The position numbers were made by a program, and so were the translations under genes. Below, piece after piece: positions 2,029 through 9,118 of a stretch of 64,000 bases of DNA (position 1 is its first letter; each line of letters begins with the position of its first letter). Under the pieces are notes generated by a model, which saw only the letters and a list, made by a program, of their open reading frames with translations, did no database searches and was not told the DNA's origin. The stretch spans positions 310,001 through 374,000 of the forward strand of contig NZ_RKIE01000001.1 of NCBI RefSeq assembly GCF_003751785.1, in the 5' to 3' direction. The DNA comes from Frigoribacterium sp. PhB160. Its GTDB lineage: Bacteria; Actinomycetota; Actinomycetes; Actinomycetales; Microbacteriaceae.

Positions 2029-2168
2029 CGCTCTAAACTCCGGACCTGGTGCCCAGAAGCCCATCGCCCACTGGATCACTTGCTGTGGTGCGAGCGCACT
2101 CGGAGAGGACTCCATCTTGGTCGTTCCGCGTCGTCGGCGAGCGTGGGCGGAAACGGTCCTCGACGTCG

Positions 2169-2174
2169 TACCGT
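2169..2174 (+). promoter_or_regulatory. probable -10 box of a leaderless promoter
   Basis: TACCGT, six bases, then the ATG at 2181. It supports the start chosen for the downstream gene over an in-frame ATG at 2049. Confidence 0.4.
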
Positions 2175-2180
2175 CTAGGG

Positions 2181-2726
2181 ATGCAGCAGCTCAGGGGCCT
2201 CGATCAGCTCGTATCGGAATGGCGGAGCTCCGGACCAGAACGTGCGCGCTTCGTGCCTGGCTTCGACCCATCAGGTGGAGGAGCAGCGGCGAAAGTTCTC
2301 GTGCTGATGGAATCACCCGGTCCTGCCACGATCAGGCAGGGCGAGGACGCGATCAGCAGTGAGGACAACCCGGGGCCGACGGCGTCTGCGTTCAAGCGAG
2401 CACGGATCGAGTCGGGTCTGGGCAGGAACGTCTACCTGCGATGGAACATCGTCCCGTGGGCCCTTGGTCGGGCGCCGACCGTCACTGATATCGACGACGC
2501 ACGCCCTGCCCTGGCCCAGCTGCTCGATTCTCTGCCGCAGCTGCGGGCGATCGTGACCTTCGGCACCCCGGCCCTGACGGGCGTGATGAGGTACTTCACC
2601 CTGGAACCGCGTGCGAGGGTCGTGCCCGTGCTCGCGGCACCCCATCTGTCGCCGGCGAACGCCACCCGCGCCGGCGAGAAGCACCTGCGGGCCGTCACGG
2701 CCCTCCGGCACGCTTCGCTTCTCTGA
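2181..2726 (+). CDS. uracil-DNA glycosylase-superfamily protein
   Basis: A 181-residue protein with the layout of the uracil-DNA glycosylase superfamily: VLVLMESPGPA corresponds to motif 1 (the GxxPG-like water/uracil site), then NIVPWALG, a GTPAL turn, and APHLSPANA corresponding to the histidine-containing motif 2 (HPSP-like). The exact catalytic class is uncertain because motif 1 reads ESPGP rather than GEAPG. Members of this subgroup are often annotated as phage-type glycosylases. It may excise uracil or act on another modified base. It ends flush against the convergent LysR gene, the two stops sharing the hexamer TGATCA at 2724-2729. Confidence 0.7.
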   Translation: MQQLRGLDQLVSEWRSSGPERARFVPGFDPSGGGAAAKVLVLMESPGPATIRQGEDAISSEDNPGPTASAFKRARIESGLGRNVYLRWNIVPWALGRAPTVTDIDDARPALAQLLDSLPQLRAIVTFGTPALTGVMRYFTLEPRARVVPVLAAPHLSPANATRAGEKHLRAVTALRHASLL

Positions 2727-3662
2727 TCATCTCGGCGAGGAGTCGGGGCTGTGCTGCAACGCGGCGATCACGGCCAGGAGATCCTGCGCCCCGGCGCTCA
2801 GACCGGCCGACCACACGGCGCGGAACGGGCGTCTCAGGTCGACGGCTGCCGGGACGGTGACGAGGCGCCCGGCGCGGAGGTCGTCCTCGACCAGCAACGA
2901 GCTGATGACTCCCGGACCCACACCACCGGCGATGGCCGCCCGGATGGCGCCCGTCGACGACAACTGCGCAGCGGGTTCTGCCATCAGGGCAGGGTCGATC
3001 CCCAGCGCGAGCTCGAGGGTCCGGCGAGTGCCCGAGCCCGACTCCCGAGACACGAGCGGTGTGGATGAGAGATCCGCTGCCGTCACGGGTTCGGACTTCG
3101 ATGCCCATGCGTGCCTGGGCGAGACGACGATGAGCAGTTCGTCGACACCCAGGACGGTCGTGGCGAGCCCGTCGGCCTCATCAGGGGTCTCCGTGAACCC
3201 GAGGTGCGCGCGCCCCGAACGGACCTCGCCGACGACCCAGTCGCTGTTGCCCGACTCCAGGCGCACCCGGACACGATCCGCTGCCGCTGTCATCCAGCGG
3301 GGCATCAGCGCCTCTGACACCGTCTGACTCGCCGCGACGAGGAGAGCGTCGGAGGCGCCGGTCGTCAGGGTGTGCAGCGATCGTTCGAAGGTGGTCGCCG
3401 CCTCGAGCAGGGGTCGGCCCCACTCGCACACCAGGAGTCCGTGCTCGGTCAGCGCCGAGCCCGCCCGAGAGCGGACGAGCAACGTACGACCCAGCCGCCG
3501 CTCGGCGCCCGTGATGCGAGACGACGCCGCCTGCTGGCTGATGCCCACCGATGTCGCGGCTCGGCCCAGACTGCCCGATCTCGAGATCGACTCCAGCAGT
3601 CGGAGCGTCTCGAGATCAACAGGGAGTCCGGTCACAAGGATCGATTGTGACACCACAAGCAT
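2727..3662 (-). CDS. LysR-family transcriptional regulator
   Basis: A 311-residue LysR regulator. The N-terminal winged helix-turn-helix is clear (LETLRLLESISRSGSLGRAA, then VGISQQAASSRITGAERRLG, about residues 16-60), followed by a two-lobe effector domain (GEVRSGRAHLGF, SRESGSGTRRTLE, VGPGVISSLLVEDDL). I use the ATG at 3662; GTG codons at 3653 and 3635 are alternatives and none has a good ribosome binding site. It is divergent from the TDT exporter with only 42 bases between starts, the classic arrangement of a LysR activator and its target. The effector is unknown; a small weak acid or sulfite would fit the transporter. Confidence 0.88.
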   Translation of the reverse strand: MLVVSQSILVTGLPVDLETLRLLESISRSGSLGRAATSVGISQQAASSRITGAERRLGRTLLVRSRAGSALTEHGLLVCEWGRPLLEAATTFERSLHTLTTGASDALLVAASQTVSEALMPRWMTAAADRVRVRLESGNSDWVVGEVRSGRAHLGFTETPDEADGLATTVLGVDELLIVVSPRHAWASKSEPVTAADLSSTPLVSRESGSGTRRTLELALGIDPALMAEPAAQLSSTGAIRAAIAGGVGPGVISSLLVEDDLRAGRLVTVPAAVDLRRPFRAVWSAGLSAGAQDLLAVIAALQHSPDSSPR

Positions 3663-3704
3663 CCGCCCGTATCGGCAGCCGGACGCACGTACGAAGATGG
3701 AGAC

Positions 3705-4853
3705 ATGCCTGCCGCGATCACACCGACTGTCGCCCTTCCCCGCACGCACGGTCTGTTCCGCCAGCTCGAGCACCGCGGGCAGATCGTGTCGAACCTGACC
3801 CCGAACTGGTTCGCGTCGATCATGGGGACCGGCATCGTCGCCAACGCTGCGGCGACCCTGCCGTTGCAGTTCCCGGGGCTGCGCCCCGCCGCGACCATCG
3901 TCTGGGCACTGGCCAGCGTGTTGTTGGTCGCTCTCAGCACGGCGACCGTCATGCACTGGGTACGTTACCGAGCCACCGCCCGGGGGCATCGACTCAATCC
4001 GGTGATGGCGCACTTCTACGGGGCACCGCCCATGGCGCTGCTGACCGTCGGCGCGGGCACCCTGCTCTTGGGTGAAGACGTCCTCGGTACGCCCCTGGCG
4101 GTCGGCATCGACTGGGTGTTGTGGACCATCGGTACGGTGCTCGGCCTCGTCAGCGCGATCGCGGTCCCGTACCTGACGTTCACCCGGCACGACACGGCCC
4201 CTGACAGCGCGTTCGGCGGCTGGCTCATGCCCGTGGTTCCCCCGATGGTGTCTGCCTCGACCGGTGCGCTGCTGCTGCCCTTCCTGCCCGAGGGGCAGGC
4301 GAGGCAGAACATGCTCTGGGGGTGCTACGCGATGTTCGGCTTGTCGTTGCTGGCGTCGATCGTGATCATCACGCTGATCTGGTCACGCCTGGCCCAGCAC
4401 AAGATCGGCCCGGCCGGCATGGTCCCGACCCTCTGGATCGTCCTCGGCCCCCTGGGGCAGTCGATCACCGCAGCCAACCTGCTCGGTGGCAACGCCCACC
4501 TCGCCGTCGACCAGGGAACCTCGCACGCCCTGTTCGCCTTCGGGCTCGTCTACGGTGTGCCCACTCTGGGATTCGCCCTGATGTGGGCGGCACTGGCATC
4601 GGCCATCACCCTCCGCACCATCCGCCAGGGGCTCCCGTTCTCACTCACCTGGTGGTCGTTCACCTTCCCCGTCGGCACCTGCGTGACAGGCCTGAACGGT
4701 CTGGCCCTGCACACGGGACTCGTCGCGCTGCAGGTACTGGCGGTCGTGTTCTACATCGGGCTCGTCGGGGCCTGGATCACGGTCGCCGTGCGCACCTTCC
4801 ACGGCAGCGTCATCCGCGGAACGCTCCTCGCGCCTCCCCGTCCTCTGGCCTGA
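3705..4853 (+). CDS. TDT-family transporter (TehA/SSU1/malic-acid type)
   Basis: A 382-residue membrane protein of the tellurite-resistance/dicarboxylate transporter family, with about ten hydrophobic helices. Family signatures seen are NLTPNWFASIMGTGIVANA at residues 30-48, where TP-WF and MGTG are typical, HFYGAPPMALLTVG, and the late WWSFTFPVGTCVTG segment lining the pore. Relatives export sulfite (SSU1) or take up malate, or behave as anion channels (TehA/SLAC1). Sulfite or another small anion is plausible; substrate unproven. It is probably controlled by the divergent LysR gene. Confidence 0.85.
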   Translation: MPAAITPTVALPRTHGLFRQLEHRGQIVSNLTPNWFASIMGTGIVANAAATLPLQFPGLRPAATIVWALASVLLVALSTATVMHWVRYRATARGHRLNPVMAHFYGAPPMALLTVGAGTLLLGEDVLGTPLAVGIDWVLWTIGTVLGLVSAIAVPYLTFTRHDTAPDSAFGGWLMPVVPPMVSASTGALLLPFLPEGQARQNMLWGCYAMFGLSLLASIVIITLIWSRLAQHKIGPAGMVPTLWIVLGPLGQSITAANLLGGNAHLAVDQGTSHALFAFGLVYGVPTLGFALMWAALASAITLRTIRQGLPFSLTWWSFTFPVGTCVTGLNGLALHTGLVALQVLAVVFYIGLVGAWITVAVRTFHGSVIRGTLLAPPRPLA

Positions 4854-4885: not shown

Positions 4886-5329
4886 TCAGATCGAACAGGC
4901 GTCGTTCCAATCACGGCGATAGGCCTCGGGGTCACTGACGTCGACGATGGCCGAGGCGGCGCCCTTGGGCTCGTCACGCGACCGGTAGCTCTCGAACGCC
5001 ACCGCAGTGCGGTCGTTGCTCGCCGGATCACGCACCCCGGAGGCTTCCACCCACAAAGTCCAGTTCCACCGGGTCCGGACGCCAGGCTGCAGCGCGCCTT
5101 CGCCGACGATCAACACCACGTCCGTGCCGGCGGTCGAGGACTCGAAGTCTGTGCCCGTGAATGCTCGGACGGACGACGTGAGGCCTCTCGCGCTGATCTC
5201 CCGAGCCAACTGACTACCCATGTCCGAGAGTTGCTCGCCAGCATCGCCGTCCACAGCCACGATGCCTCCACCTGACGGAAGCCGACTCAGCATCTCGGAA
5301 ACCAAGTCATGGATGACGGTGTTGTTCAT
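4886..5329 (-). CDS. uridine-kinase-like protein with degenerate P-loop
   Basis: A 147-residue protein with a good ribosome binding site (GGAGAAAGCATC before ATG). The N-terminal segment SGGGIVAVDGDAGEQLSDMG looks like the Walker A strand and loop of uridine-kinase-like NTPases (IVAVDGxxGxGKT), but the glycine-lysine-serine/threonine core is gone. The rest (GTDVVLIVGEGALQP, RTRWNWTLWVEAS, YRRDWNDACSI) resembles the C-terminal half of such kinases, shortened. It is therefore probably a non-catalytic remnant or a repurposed fold. It is convergent with the TDT gene (32 bases apart). Function unknown. Confidence 0.5.
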   Translation of the reverse strand: MNNTVIHDLVSEMLSRLPSGGGIVAVDGDAGEQLSDMGSQLAREISARGLTSSVRAFTGTDFESSTAGTDVVLIVGEGALQPGVRTRWNWTLWVEASGVRDPASNDRTAVAFESYRSRDEPKGAASAIVDVSDPEAYRRDWNDACSI

Positions 5330-5497: not shown

Positions 5498-5533
5498 TTC
5501 CGGGGTGACGCCTGGGAATGCGTCGCCCCGGAA
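5498..5533 (-). terminator. terminator of the fluoride operon
   Basis: Read on the minus strand: TTCCGGGG, one unpaired base, GACGC, an eight-base loop, GCGTC, one unpaired base, CCCCGGAA. That is 13 pairs around a single internal mismatch, 13 bases past the last crcB stop. No U-run follows, as is common in high-GC actinobacteria. Confidence 0.65.
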
Positions 5534-5545
5534 GTCAGAAGGGTG

Positions 5546-5923
5546 TCATGACGTGCCGATGGTGAGGCCGACGAGCCCGGCAGCGACAGCGAGCAGCAGC
5601 ATGCCCGCGCCGCTGGCGATCCCCGCGACCCATTTCTTCTCGGCTACGAGGCGCACGGTCTCGACGCTGGCGGTGCTGAACGTGGTGTAGCCGCCCATGA
5701 GCCCGCCGCCCGCGACGAGCAGCCACTCTCGGGGCAGCCCCGCGTGGTCGGCGAGACCCGTGAGCAAGCCGAGCACGAACGACCCGCTGACGTTGATGAC
5801 CAGGGTTGCCAGCGGAATGGGCGCCGACCGCGTGCTGCGGACGGCACCATCGACGACTAGGCGCAGGGCCGCACCCACGCCACCGGCGACCGCGATCGCG
5901 ACGAAGAGCCATGGGGCGATCAC
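5546..5923 (-). CDS. crcB: fluoride channel FluC/CrcB, second subunit
   Basis: A 125-residue four-helix membrane protein of the Fluc/CrcB family, which exports F- passively as a dual-topology dimer. Diagnostic motifs are GGVGAALR in helix 1, LATLVINVSGSFVLGL in helix 2 (the NxxGSF motif), and GGGLMGGYTTFSTASVE, the helix-3 break with the TTFS track and phenylalanine box. It is the last gene of the riboswitch-controlled operon and overlaps the upstream crcB by four bases. Adjacent unequal pairs normally assemble as a heterodimer, so this one probably works with the neighbour. Confidence 0.93.
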   Translation of the reverse strand: MIAPWLFVAIAVAGGVGAALRLVVDGAVRSTRSAPIPLATLVINVSGSFVLGLLTGLADHAGLPREWLLVAGGGLMGGYTTFSTASVETVRLVAEKKWVAGIASGAGMLLLAVAAGLVGLTIGTS

Positions 5924-6456
5924 GACGCCGCCTCAGAACGGCGGTGGAGGGCGGCACCGCCGGTGATGCCGGCCCAGGAAGCCACGGCGCCGAGCACGAC
6001 CGAGCCCACACCGTAGGCGATGGCGATCGACGGCGCGTCACCGAACAGGGTCGCGGTGTCGACTGCGAGGGCGCTGTAGGTGGTGAATCCGCCGAGAACG
6101 CCTGTTCCGATGAGTAGACGCAGGTCGCGTCGGCGACCCGCGTCCGGCCCTCGTCGCACCAGCGACTCAAGGAGCAGCCCGAGCGCGAACGCACCGACGA
6201 CATTGATCAGCAGGATCGTCACGGGGATGGTGCCCGGGGCCGCGGGGAAGCTCAACGCCAGGGCTTCGCGCAGGCCCGTGCCGATCGTGCCGCCGAGGGT
6301 GACGAGTCCGATGAACCGCCACCGCAGGTGCACGGGCCGTTCGGTGCCCGTGGAGTCGTCGACATCGAGGTCCGGGTCCTGGCCCAGCCCTCGGAACTCG
6401 TCGCCTCTGCTCGAAGGCAGCGGCGGGAACGGTGAGTCAGGTGAGGGTGAGGTCAT
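5920..6456 (-). CDS. crcB: fluoride channel FluC/CrcB, first subunit with N-terminal extension
   Basis: A 178-residue CrcB homologue with the usual four helices from about residue 45 onward, preceded by a proline- and acid-rich extension of about 44 residues absent from its partner. Motifs: GGTIGTGLREAL, VTILLINVVGAFALGL, GTGVLGGFTTYSALAVD. The TTFS sequence reads TTYS, so one phenylalanine position is changed, consistent with asymmetric roles in a heterodimer. It overlaps enolase upstream and crcB downstream by four bases each, implying translational coupling. Confidence 0.9.
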   Translation of the reverse strand: MTSPSPDSPFPPLPSSRGDEFRGLGQDPDLDVDDSTGTERPVHLRWRFIGLVTLGGTIGTGLREALALSFPAAPGTIPVTILLINVVGAFALGLLLESLVRRGPDAGRRRDLRLLIGTGVLGGFTTYSALAVDTATLFGDAPSIAIAYGVGSVVLGAVASWAGITGGAALHRRSEAAS

Positions 6457-7805
6457 GCATCGTCCTTCGTGCTGAGGCCGTAGGGAAGTCCGGGCTGATC
6501 GGCTTCGATATCGGTCAGGCGGTTGTACTTGCAGACCCGTTCCCCGCGTGCGGGGGCACCGGATTTGATCTGGCCGACCCCGGTGCCGACGACGAGGTCG
6601 GCGATGAACGTGTCGGTGGTCTCCCCGGAGCGGTGCGACACCATGCAGGCCATGTCGTGCGACCGGGCCGTCGCGATCGCGTCGAGGGTCTGGCTCACAG
6701 TACCGATCTGGTTCGGCTTGATGAGAACGGCGTCCGACCAGCCCTGATCCGCGCCTTCGGCGATCCTTCTGGGGTCAGTCACGTACAGGTCATCGCCGAC
6801 GAGCTGAACCCGTCCGCCGAACCGCGACGCCATCAGCGCCCACCCGTCGTGGTCGTCCTCGTGGAACGCGTCTTCGATGCTCCTGATCGGGTACGCCTCG
6901 AGCAGGGCCCCGTACCGGTCCGCGAGACTTCCACGATCGAGGTCTTGCCCGGCGACTCGGTATCGGCCGTCTCCGTCGCCGAATCCGTTCGCGGCAGGGT
7001 CGAGGGCGATGGCGACGTCGTCCAGCGCTGCCCGGTGGCCGGCGTCGGTGATCGCCTGGACGATGAGGTCGAGGGCCTCCTCGGGGTTGCTGATCGCCGG
7101 GGCGAAGCCGCCCTCGTCGCCGAGCCCTGCGGTGCCGTAGCGCGTCTGTACGAGCGTCTTCAGGGCGTGGTAGACCTCTGCTCCGGTCTGTACCGCTTCC
7201 TCTTCACTGGTCGCCCCGACGGGAGCGATCATGAATTCTTGGAAGTCGAGGTCGTTAGCTGCGTGGGCGCCTCCGTTCAGGACGTTGAAGTGCGGGACGG
7301 GGAGCGTTTCGTTCGCCCCCGACAGCAGGGCGATCCACCGGTGCAGGGGCAGGCCGGCTTCGCGGGCCAGCGCCCGGGACGCCGCGATCGAGGTCGCGAC
7401 GACGGCGTTGGCGCCGAGCCTTGACCAGTTCGACGTGCCGTCGAGGTCGGCGAGGGCACGGTCGATCTCGCTGATCCCGGCCCAGGGGCGTGAGGTGAGG
7501 AGGTCGCCGATCTCGGTGGTGACCATCTGCGCGGCTCGTCGGACGCCCTTGCCACTGAACGCTGCGCCACCGTCCCGGAGTTCGACGGCCTCGTGGGCAC
7601 CGGTCGAGGCTCCTGCGGGGGCGGCGCCCGAGACGAGGGTGCCGTCGGCGAGTTCGAGGTCGACTTGGACGGTGGGGAATCCGCGGGAGTCCAAGATCGA
7701 CCGCCCGAGGGCGGACACGATCTGGACGGGGTGTGCGCCTCCGTGGGTGACGTAGGTGCCGACGTCGTGGGTGTGGATGGTGCGGTCGCTGATGTAGTCG
7801 TTCAC
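6453..7805 (-). CDS. eno: enolase, divergent paralogue in the fluoride operon
   Basis: A 450-residue enolase (2-phosphoglycerate to phosphoenolpyruvate, Mg-dependent, cytosolic). The GTG at 7805 is preceded by GAAGGAGG. Family landmarks are present: GASTGAHEAVELRDG loop, HFNVLNGGAHAANDLDFQEF, LGDEGGFAP, metal ligands in ALDPAA, SIEDAF and VGDDL, the catalytic lysine in LIKPNQIGT, and SHRSGETTDTFIADL with GQIKSGAPARGERVCKYN. Several nearly invariant neighbours differ from housekeeping enolases: DSRGFP for DSRGNP, SIEDAF for SIEDP, IKPNQ for KVNQ. Fluoride inhibits enolase as a Mg-F-phosphate complex, so a replacement copy inside a fluoride operon is meaningful. A separate housekeeping eno presumably exists elsewhere. 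Confidence 0.92.
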   Translation of the reverse strand: MNDYISDRTIHTHDVGTYVTHGGAHPVQIVSALGRSILDSRGFPTVQVDLELADGTLVSGAAPAGASTGAHEAVELRDGGAAFSGKGVRRAAQMVTTEIGDLLTSRPWAGISEIDRALADLDGTSNWSRLGANAVVATSIAASRALAREAGLPLHRWIALLSGANETLPVPHFNVLNGGAHAANDLDFQEFMIAPVGATSEEEAVQTGAEVYHALKTLVQTRYGTAGLGDEGGFAPAISNPEEALDLIVQAITDAGHRAALDDVAIALDPAANGFGDGDGRYRVAGQDLDRGSLADRYGALLEAYPIRSIEDAFHEDDHDGWALMASRFGGRVQLVGDDLYVTDPRRIAEGADQGWSDAVLIKPNQIGTVSQTLDAIATARSHDMACMVSHRSGETTDTFIADLVVGTGVGQIKSGAPARGERVCKYNRLTDIEADQPGLPYGLSTKDDA

Positions 7806-7806
7806 G

Positions 7807-8547
7807 TCAGGTTCCTCCTTCGTGGGTGATGACCGCGGCGGCGAGGGCCGCTGCGGCCGGGTCGAGGTACGTGCCGCCCCGCGTCAGCGGATGCCCATCG
7901 GAGGCGAGGTCGTACATCAGGGGGTGTCCGGTCGGGATGTTGAGCGCGGCGACCTCGAGCGGGGTCAGCGCGTCGAGCAGCAGGCAGAGTGCGCGGAGGC
8001 TGTTGCCATGGCCCACCACGAGCACGGTGCCGCCGGCGGTCCCGGCCTTGACCGCCTCGGTGACGGGGCGGACCCGGGCGATGACGTCGAGCAGGCTCTC
8101 GGCCCGGGTGCGGTTCTCGGGTTCCACATGACGGAGGGCATCCTGAGCCCACAGCTTCGCGAACAGCGCGTCAGAGGACGGCGGGGGCGGGGTGTCCAGG
8201 GAGCGCCGCCACAGGGTGAAGTCCTCCTCGCCGGCTGAGCGGCGGACATCAGCCTTGGTCCGTCCGGTCAGGTCGCCGTAGTCGCGTTCCCGGAGTCGCA
8301 CGTCGACGGTGGCGGGCACGGGCCACTTGTTCTCGGCCACCATGATGCGGGCAGTCTCAGTCGCACGGGCCAGCGGTGAGCACAGGGTCGATGCCGGGCG
8401 GAAACCCGCCTCGTCGAGCAGGTGTGCAGCACGGCGGGCTTCTTCCCGGCCTCCGGTCGTCAGGGGTGAGTCGGTGATGCCGGTGAAGAGCCCGTCGGCA
8501 TTGGCCTGGCTTTCGCCATGTCGCACGAGGGCGATCCGGGTCGTCAC
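7807..8547 (-). CDS. gpmA: 2,3-bisphosphoglycerate-dependent phosphoglycerate mutase
   Basis: A 246-residue histidine phosphatase-superfamily mutase that interconverts 3- and 2-phosphoglycerate. LVRHGESQAN carries the phosphorylated histidine and arginine near residues 8-12, RERDYGDLTGRTK the acidic proton donor, and VVGHGNSLRAL the second histidine. A C-terminal tail follows PTGHPLMYDL. Overlap with usp is four bases, and only one base separates its stop from the enolase start. It supplies the substrate of the neighbouring enolase, so the operon carries two successive steps of lower glycolysis under fluoride control. Confidence 0.93.
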   Translation of the reverse strand: MTTRIALVRHGESQANADGLFTGITDSPLTTGGREEARRAAHLLDEAGFRPASTLCSPLARATETARIMVAENKWPVPATVDVRLRERDYGDLTGRTKADVRRSAGEEDFTLWRRSLDTPPPPSSDALFAKLWAQDALRHVEPENRTRAESLLDVIARVRPVTEAVKAGTAGGTVLVVGHGNSLRALCLLLDALTPLEVAALNIPTGHPLMYDLASDGHPLTRGGTYLDPAAAALAAAVITHEGGT

Positions 8548-9008
8548 GGCCGTGCCTCTGAGACCGGCACGACGAGGACTGGCACGAGCTGATGGTGCAT
8601 GAGGAACGATGCCGTGGACCCGTGCAGTGCAGCCTTCAGGCCCGCGGCCGGACCGTTCGAGGAGCCGACGACGATCATCACGGCGTGCGTGTCGGCGGCG
8701 ACGCGGGCCAACGCCTCTGCGGGGTCACCGGCGAGGACACGGACGTCGACCGTGATCTGCACCTCGGTCCGGAGCCGGGCTGCCGCAGTCTCGACGGCGG
8801 ATGTGTCGACGGCGTCGTACTCGTCTGGGTCGAGGGGAGCGGTCGCTCCTCGGCCGCTGCCGTCAACGGGGTCAGCGGGGACGCGAGAGTCGTCGACCCA
8901 GACGACGACGAGTCGCGCCGACAGCCGGGCCGCGATGCGGGCAGCGGTCGAGAGAACGACGCCGGCCGTTCGGGCATGTGCCCCGACGACGATGGTGTCG
9001 GTGGTCAT
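8544..9008 (-). CDS. universal stress protein, first gene of the fluoride operon
   Basis: A 154-residue UspA-domain protein. IVVGAHARTAGVVL is the N-terminal strand/helix with divergent ATP loop, and VIVVGSSNGPAAGLKAALHGSTAS matches the C-terminal G-2x-G-9x-G-S/T nucleotide motif only loosely. The start ATG at 9008 has AGGAG five bases upstream. That sequence is part of a helix predicted to be controlled by the fluoride riboswitch, making this the gene on which translation of the operon is gated. UspA genes are known members of fluoride-riboswitch regulons; their role in fluoride tolerance is not established. Confidence 0.88.
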   Translation of the reverse strand: MTTDTIVVGAHARTAGVVLSTAARIAARLSARLVVVWVDDSRVPADPVDGSGRGATAPLDPDEYDAVDTSAVETAAARLRTEVQITVDVRVLAGDPAEALARVAADTHAVMIVVGSSNGPAAGLKAALHGSTASFLMHHQLVPVLVVPVSEARP

Positions 9009-9013
9009 CTAGT

Positions 9014-9054
9014 CTCCTATCTCGGTATCTGGGCACGCCAGTGGTTGAGATAGG
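9014..9054 (-). promoter_or_regulatory. riboswitch expression platform sequestering the Shine-Dalgarno
   Basis: On the minus strand CCTATCTC (9054-9047) is an exact complement of GAGATAGG (9023-9016). The second arm contains the start of the AGGAG ribosome binding site at 9018-9014. The first arm begins inside the last aptamer pseudoknot strand (CCC at 9055-9053) and its conserved UA. The two structures cannot coexist, so ligand binding should expose the ribosome binding site. Confidence 0.7.
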
Positions 9055-9102
9055 GACTGTTGTCGACCTGAGTCGAGGTTGGTGACGGCGAGCCCCACCG
9101 CC
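9050..9102 (-). promoter_or_regulatory. fluoride riboswitch (crcB motif) aptamer
   Basis: The aptamer fold is visible: GGCG (9102-9099) pairs with CGCC (9090-9087). The enclosed loop GGGGCU (9096-9091) pairs with AGUCCC (9058-9053) as a pseudoknot of six pairs including one G-U. A second hairpin UCGAC/GUCGA (9076-9063) separates them, and the terminal UA (9052-9051) is the family's conserved dinucleotide. This matches the architecture known from the Thermotoga petrophila aptamer. It lies in front of an operon containing two crcB genes. Two normally conserved positions (9098 and 9062) read G and C instead of A and U. Confidence 0.85.
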
Positions 9103-9118
9103 GTGGCGTTTCCGCCAC
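9103..9118 (-). other. perfect GAAA-tetraloop hairpin abutting the riboswitch
   Basis: GTGGCG-GAAA-CGCCAC on the minus strand: six pairs and a GNRA tetraloop, ending on the base before the first aptamer helix, so the two helices could stack. Not part of the standard aptamer. Confidence 0.5.

Follow-up and report, generated by a model that had tools for sequence, protein, structure and literature searches.

The stretch analysed here (64,000 nt, referred to as the window) covers positions 310,001 to 374,000 of contig NZ_RKIE01000001.1 of Frigoribacterium sp. PhB160. Its minus strand carries, from position 9111 down to 5498, a putative fluoride-defence operon made, in this order, of a leader, the gene usp for a universal stress protein, the genes pgm and eno for a 2,3-bisphosphoglycerate-dependent phosphoglycerate mutase (dPGM) and an enolase, two genes for Fluc channel subunits (crcB1 and crcB2) and a hairpin. 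The usp/pgm, eno/crcB1 and crcB1/crcB2 junctions are 4-nt overlaps and a 1-nt gap separates pgm from eno; the consecutive leader-usp-pgm-eno-crcB-crcB packing read in a preliminary description is thus borne out by the coordinates, the overlaps and the family scores. The usp, eno, pgm and crcB genes lie in one unit behind a fluoride-type leader and would be read as a single transcript. The features are:

9047..9108, minus strand: variant fluoride-type aptamer (RF01734, 11.7 bits; model R1, 79 bits; covariation)
9098 and 9062, minus strand: aptamer position 6, G for A, and its partner position 38, C for U, replacing a reversed Watson-Crick pair
9053..9058, minus strand: 3' strand of the pseudoknot, A42 G43 U44 C45 C46 C47, pairing with 9096-9091
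9047..9054, minus strand: CCUAUCUC, made up of C46 to U48 plus the 5 nt that follow, with complementarity to the Shine-Dalgarno region
9016..9023, minus strand: GAGAUAGG, overlapping the usp Shine-Dalgarno sequence, able to pair with 9054-9047 when the aptamer is unlocked
8544..9008, minus strand: usp, universal stress protein, 154 aa (PF00582, 58.5 bits)
7807..8547, minus strand: pgm, second dPGM, 246 aa (TIGR01258 (pgm_1), 174 bits; His_Phos_1, 130 bits)
6453..7805, minus strand: eno, second enolase, 450 aa, extended N-terminally by about 25 aa (TIGR01060, 478.5 bits; tree; motifs)
5920..6456, minus strand: crcB1, Fluc subunit, predicted N-in, 178 aa (PF02537, 72 bits; charge bias)
5546..5923, minus strand: crcB2, Fluc subunit, predicted N-out, 125 aa (PF02537, 75 bits; charge bias)
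5498..5533, minus strand: 36-nt hairpin 3' of crcB2, without a U tract, a possible transcript end

At its gathering cut-off (34 bits) Rfam finds no fluoride riboswitch in the window, and the family model RF01734 is without match in the genome. In a permissive scan, the leader aligned to the whole RF01734 model (E 0.65). By hand and with a structure descriptor, P1 (GGCG/CGCC), P3 (UCGAC/GUCGA), the six-pair pseudoknot 8-13/42-47 and the linchpin A40-U48 were found to be present, as in RF01734, whose place before fluoride genes the leader also shares; the position numbers used here are taken to follow the numbering of the T. petrophila structure. The loop reads G6 U7 G8 G9 G10 G11 C12 U13, and C38 A39 A40 C41 A42 leads into GUCCC, the rest of the 3' strand of the pseudoknot, and U48, so that four core positions differ: G6 for A6, C38 for U38, A39 for G39 and C41 for U41. 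The low RF01734 score is attributed to this different core and to such models leaving the pseudoknot unscored. The conclusion from the Rfam result that no riboswitch is present was rejected, as the alignment over the full model and the comparison across genomes described below make a chance match untenable. Since two conserved core positions and the Rfam cut-off are failed, the leader is called a variant and not a member of the family. The riboswitch of the preliminary description thus stands as far as the leader is concerned, which is real by cross-genome comparison, whereas its atypical core had gone unnoticed and places it below the Rfam cut-off.

The linchpin A40-U48 is described as a reverse Hoogsteen pair, and a long-range reversed Watson-Crick A-U pair is given as A5-U35 in one paper and as A10-U38 in another (PMC8004769, PMC10687018, PMC8752731); we equate this long-range pair with A6-U38 of the present numbering. 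The window leader has G6-C38 in its stead and, with A39 and C41, differs there from RF01734. Word searches of the open-access literature turned up no paper on a G6-C38 fluoride riboswitch. An exchange of the same type occurs in the Levitt pair of tRNA, which is either G15-C48 or A15-U48.

Two locus searches yielded 106 unique leaders, 96 of which, having the five central pseudoknot pairs and U48, were kept, and 10 were dropped; core letters were counted from positions in covariance-model alignments. Pair 6-38 is G-C in 82 of the 96 intact leaders, A-U in 13 and G-U in one, with no A-C, and among the 56 leaders of the class Actinomycetes confirmed by their gene context (see below) it is G-C in 54, A-U in one and G-U in one. 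Pair 13-42 is C-G in 37 of the 96, U-A in 29 and U-G in 29, with one gap and no C-A. The identity of residue 41 is not tied to that of pair 6-38 (A-U with U41 in seven leaders and with C41 in six, G-C with U41 in three), indicating that the 6-38 exchange was not simply passed on as part of a single block, and the linchpin is A-U in 74 of 78 distinct rows (alignment A3). In a first set, 17 pairs including the pseudoknot, 6-38 and the linchpin can pair in 97.2% of cells and in 13 of them both partners change; no shuffle out of 500 reached such values on any measure, and sliding the columns by 1-3 destroyed the signal. A second set gave 95.7% pairing and 10 pairs changing on both sides, with 0/500 shuffles as high on four measures and 3/500 on the fifth. 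The natural exchange of A6-U38 for G6-C38 also lends evolutionary weight to a tertiary pair already seen in structures.

To follow the leader across genomes, a covariance model, R1, was made from 11 leaders whose first genes are usp, pgm, eno, pyrophosphatase (PPase) and one unidentified gene, and never crcB, which lies further down in four of the training units (the window, L023, L024 and L099). The window leader is itself one of the 11 rows, so that its 79 bits are not independent. At E 0.001, R1 gave 73 matches in 67 of 394 Actinomycetes genomes, 362 of which carry crcB; in the same 394 genomes, RF01734 gave 38 matches in 24 genomes, with 21 matches in 11 genomes over the cut-off. None of the 73 R1 matches overlaps an RF01734 match above the cut-off and seven overlap one below it, while six genomes have both kinds in different places. 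Seventy of the 73 were examined in context, the other three being near the E limit, and in 56 of these, from 52 genomes, a fluoride-regulon gene starts within 320 nt: the first gene is crcB in 50 (48 genomes), usp in two (one being the window), a dynamin-like GTPase gene in two, PPase in one and enolase in one. Nine of the 50 crcB products, five profile seeds included, were checked against Pfam and all matched PF02537 (75-101 bits). As no training leader had crcB first, this association is largely independent evidence for fluoride as the ligand. Related loci combine a fluoride-type leader with different selections, differently ordered, from eno, pgm, usp, PPase and crcB.

In a scan of the phylum, 15 of 296 genomes matched R1, eight of them outside the class. 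Seven of these eight matches precede crcB and all have, by eye, the A6/U38/U41 core, meaning that R1 detects the usual form too; the eighth (L215) looks like chance. Within the genomes sampled, the G6-C38 form is seen in Actinomycetes only.

The changed positions 6, 38, 39 and 41 surround the ion pocket, and some leaders precede genes with no obvious tie to fluoride, such as those for dynamin-like GTPases, which would speak for an altered core binding another anion or a metal-anion complex; the existence, in other riboswitch classes, of variants whose ligand has changed counts for the same explanation. We nevertheless give it a small chance, since 50 of the 56 context-confirmed leaders precede crcB and others precede enolase or pyrophosphatase genes, and since in the known structure fluoride is described as held via metal ions whose coordination comes from backbone phosphates and water rather than from bases (PMC8752731). 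Fluoride is thus retained as the probable ligand of the variant leader.

The 3' strand of the pseudoknot is complementary to the Shine-Dalgarno region, implying control at the level of translation. A start codon with a Shine-Dalgarno sequence could be assigned in 81 of the 96 leaders. The longest helix that their pseudoknot strand can form with the 22 nt preceding the start, which hold the Shine-Dalgarno region, has a mean length of 7.5 bp, compared with 5.74 bp for swapped leaders (highest of 200 swaps, 6.09); it measures only 3-5 bp in 17 of the 81. Lineages differ in sequence yet stay complementary, with the pairs CCUAUCUC/GAGAUAGG, CCUGGUC/GACCAGG, CCUACUUGC/GCGAGUAGG and CCCUGCGUG/CACGCAGGG. 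C46, C47 and U48 thus have two possible sets of partners, those in the pseudoknot and linchpin and those at the ribosome site. A translational reading fits a published in vitro termination assay, in which hardly any of the fluoride riboswitches from Actinomycetota acted transcriptionally (PMC13273304).

We propose that the variant aptamer in the leader would sense cytoplasmic fluoride. When fluoride is lacking, CCUAUCUC would pair with GAGAUAGG over the usp Shine-Dalgarno sequence and keep translation off; the overlapping downstream genes would follow usp by translational coupling. Of the products, a CrcB1/CrcB2 heterodimer would export fluoride and the operon enzymes would add enolase and phosphoglycerate mutase capacity at a fluoride-sensitive step of glycolysis, alongside the universal stress protein.

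The leader could instead be a decayed fluoride riboswitch, the operon being expressed constitutively or under another regulator, for example that of the adjoining LysR gene. Four usual core positions differ and Rfam misses the leader, and a LysR gene and an anion-channel gene do lie nearby. Against this, the altered core recurs in 54 of the 56 context-confirmed leaders, from 52 genomes, its pairs covary and its position before crcB is kept; nor would decay preserve A40, U48, the pseudoknot and the anti-Shine-Dalgarno pairing. A very small chance is therefore left to decay, and a fluoride-inducible defence operon under a variant, translationally acting fluoride riboswitch, with products working as proposed above, is considered highly probable.

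Several points weigh against this interpretation. The leader stays below the curated Rfam cut-off (11.7 vs 34 bits), and U41 is reported to be highly conserved, the U41A change abolishing the B. cereus switch (PMC11077080); the change in the window is to C, unlike the B. cereus one. One leader with A6-C38 (L125:2626) is present as a partial match among the 10 dropped of the 106. The shuffle control ignores relatedness and the two sets share relatives, and the alignments were fitted to a model that includes P1 and P3 and lacks the pseudoknot and pair 6-38. As to gene context, 14 of the 70 matches have none of the six gene types within 320 nt: two run into the end of a contig, about five combine an intact variant core with a different neighbour, and the rest have broken or doubtful cores and look like chance. 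The six profiles used were built from the window proteins and from the first genes of some of the same leaders, so that the single-member types (the GTPase of L166, the enolase of L151, and usp) are partly self-recognised. Finally, the support for the whole scheme comes from sequence comparison.

Taken across the class, the comparison makes it likely, in our judgement, that Actinomycetes carry a widespread re-cored fluoride riboswitch, with G6-C38 for A6-U38, mostly with A39 and C41, and translational, which the Rfam model misses, so that some Fluc genes counted as riboswitch-free are riboswitch-controlled; the new core may set a different fluoride threshold. A 2024 review puts only about 15% of Fluc genes under riboswitches and states that other, unknown regulation exists (PMC11139923). 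Part of this gap in riboswitch coverage is a detection problem, since the Rfam model passes in 11 genomes and R1 matches 67 (48 with crcB first), with no agreement above the cut-off; a new covariance model would fix that part. The natural variants are also ready-made material for asking what sets fluoride affinity.

The host genome (four contigs, 99.97% complete) was searched for separate housekeeping eno and gpm genes, as the preliminary description had proposed, and both were found on contig C2: an enolase gene at C2:463669-464928, with 672 bits vs 478 for the operon copy, and a housekeeping-type dPGM gene at C2:238874-239614, with 430 bits to NF010718 vs 212 for the operon copy. The operon eno and pgm are thus extra copies, and the lack of a second enolase is excluded. 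The conserved motifs looked for are intact in both operon enzymes. When the enolase active site was inspected for changes that might confer fluoride resistance, the one that stood out was PAGAST in place of PSGAST. Among named relatives, the closest enolases are those of Frigoribacterium sp. PhB24, PhB116, Leaf8 and ACAM 257 (96-98% identity). Among 60 genomes searched, own included, a full-length operon enolase with at least 95% identity occurs in seven of the 16 genus genomes, in one of which (G004) it is listed with an in-frame TAG; a further genus genome, G003, has it as two fragments only, and a 64-67% identical relative is found in three genomes of the family. The G003 locus (L102, on G003:C14) is a reduced Frigoribacterium cassette, with the leader directly before pgm, no usp and the middle of the enolase missing.

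In a tree of 43 rows the operon enolase belongs to a 13-member group with full support; 11 members have a variant-type leader in the same unit, and two (L025 and L027) lie beside a crcB pair and have no such leader. This group is nested in a larger one of 31 actinobacterial enolases, likewise with full support, with the own housekeeping copy, the sole actinobacterial housekeeping enolase put in the tree, outside; the group of 31 is not purely a fluoride group, as nine of its members are not labelled fluoride-linked. These data bear on a further explanation, in which the housekeeping roles fall to the enolase and dPGM of the operon and the link to fluoride is incidental. Both being full-length with conserved motifs would agree with it; the better-scoring eno and dPGM genes on C2 refute it, and both the restriction of the full-length operon enolase to seven of 16 genus genomes and its grouping apart from the own housekeeping copy speak against such a role, which we hold to be extremely unlikely.

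Both CrcB proteins match Fluc channels of solved structure and keep the GG(F/Y)TT(F/Y)S and IN motifs, which are conserved in Fluc proteins. With helices placed by eye, CrcB1 has 12 Arg+Lys on N/L2/C and none on L1/L3, and CrcB2 one on N/L2/C and five on L1/L3. An opposite Arg+Lys bias of this kind is described for heteromeric Fluc pairs, among them the tandem homologous pair La1/La2 (PMC3755343); unlike La1/La2, the window pair lies in an operon with metabolic enzymes. The two proteins are accordingly predicted to form an antiparallel heterodimer, with the charge bias as expected, and the heterodimeric channel of the preliminary description is supported by the tandem homologues, their bias and their conserved motifs. 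Its broader proposal, that a fluoride-sensitive metabolic segment is replaced while the ion is exported, the second enolase perhaps helping through lower fluoride sensitivity or simply through added amount, is supported by the second enzyme copies, the intact motifs, the CrcB charge bias and the related loci with similar gene sets. A second crcB pair lies elsewhere in the genome (C3:159262-160037, L096); near it the variant leader model gave no match even at E 1, and this pair is presumably not riboswitch-controlled.

The gene set is of a kind already known, as Enterobacter cloacae FRM has an induced counterpart, the ppaC-uspA-eno-gpmA-crcB-orf5249 operon, in which fluoride raises eno 176-fold and whose genes, as knockouts and complementation are reported to indicate, act together (PMC5533749). 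Both operons open with a fluoride-type riboswitch and go on with genes for a UspA protein, enolase, phosphoglycerate mutase and CrcB, the enzymes being extra copies also according to that paper. The window differs in its gene order, in having two crcB genes vs one and in the absence of a pyrophosphatase gene, for which the five genes between 9008 and 5546 leave no space; moreover, the E. cloacae riboswitch was found with RF01734, whereas the window leader is a variant that scores far under the cut-off and probably acts on translation. The new element is therefore the riboswitch core, as a variant, and not the kind of operon. The same genes (usp, pgm, crcB, crcB and eno) stand behind a G6-C38 leader on the plasmids pSGAir0127 of Micrococcus luteus and pCT1 of Clavibacter michiganensis, in the different order usp-pgm-crcB-crcB-PPase-eno and adjoining recombinase and Mu-type transposase genes, which makes the cassette probably mobile. 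Judged by its sequences, the enzyme set of the window thus resembles the extra-enzyme strategy of Enterobacter, with an enolase lineage of its own and an occurrence on plasmids too.

With regard to the operon ends, a sigma-70 promoter scan gave no match, this consensus being uninformative for a high-GC actinobacterium. The strong terminator of the preliminary description is only partly supported: the hairpin at 5533-5498 exists, and the 121-nt stretch surrounding it has a folding z of -2.7, but it lacks a U tract and a consensus scan for intrinsic terminators found none on the operon strand.

Two observations concern other variant leaders. Dynamin-like GTPase genes, which are not known as a fluoride-regulon gene type, lie directly behind such leaders in four loci (L028:2570, L083:1703, L137:845 and L166:4786), with PF00350 in all three products tested. 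Microbacterium sp. STN6 (L022) has four variant leaders within 6 kb (5126 on the plus strand; 560, 1042 and 4073 on the minus strand), one preceding pgm-eno and one a usp-like gene.

Downstream of crcB2, a gene for a 147-aa protein without match in Pfam or NCBIfam (4886-5329, minus strand) recurs in all five of the further Frigoribacterium loci that extend to this position (L019, L020, L021, L026 and L101). Next to the fluoride cassette, at 2049-4853, lie a UDG-like gene, so named after the pSGAir0127 annotation and without a Pfam match in the window, a LysR regulator gene and a SLAC1/TDT anion-channel gene. The same three neighbours are found in Frigoribacterium, in two more genomes of the family and on the Micrococcus plasmid pSGAir0127 (L020, L021, L026, L099, L100 and L218), which suggests that the SLAC1/TDT anion channel belongs to the fluoride island.

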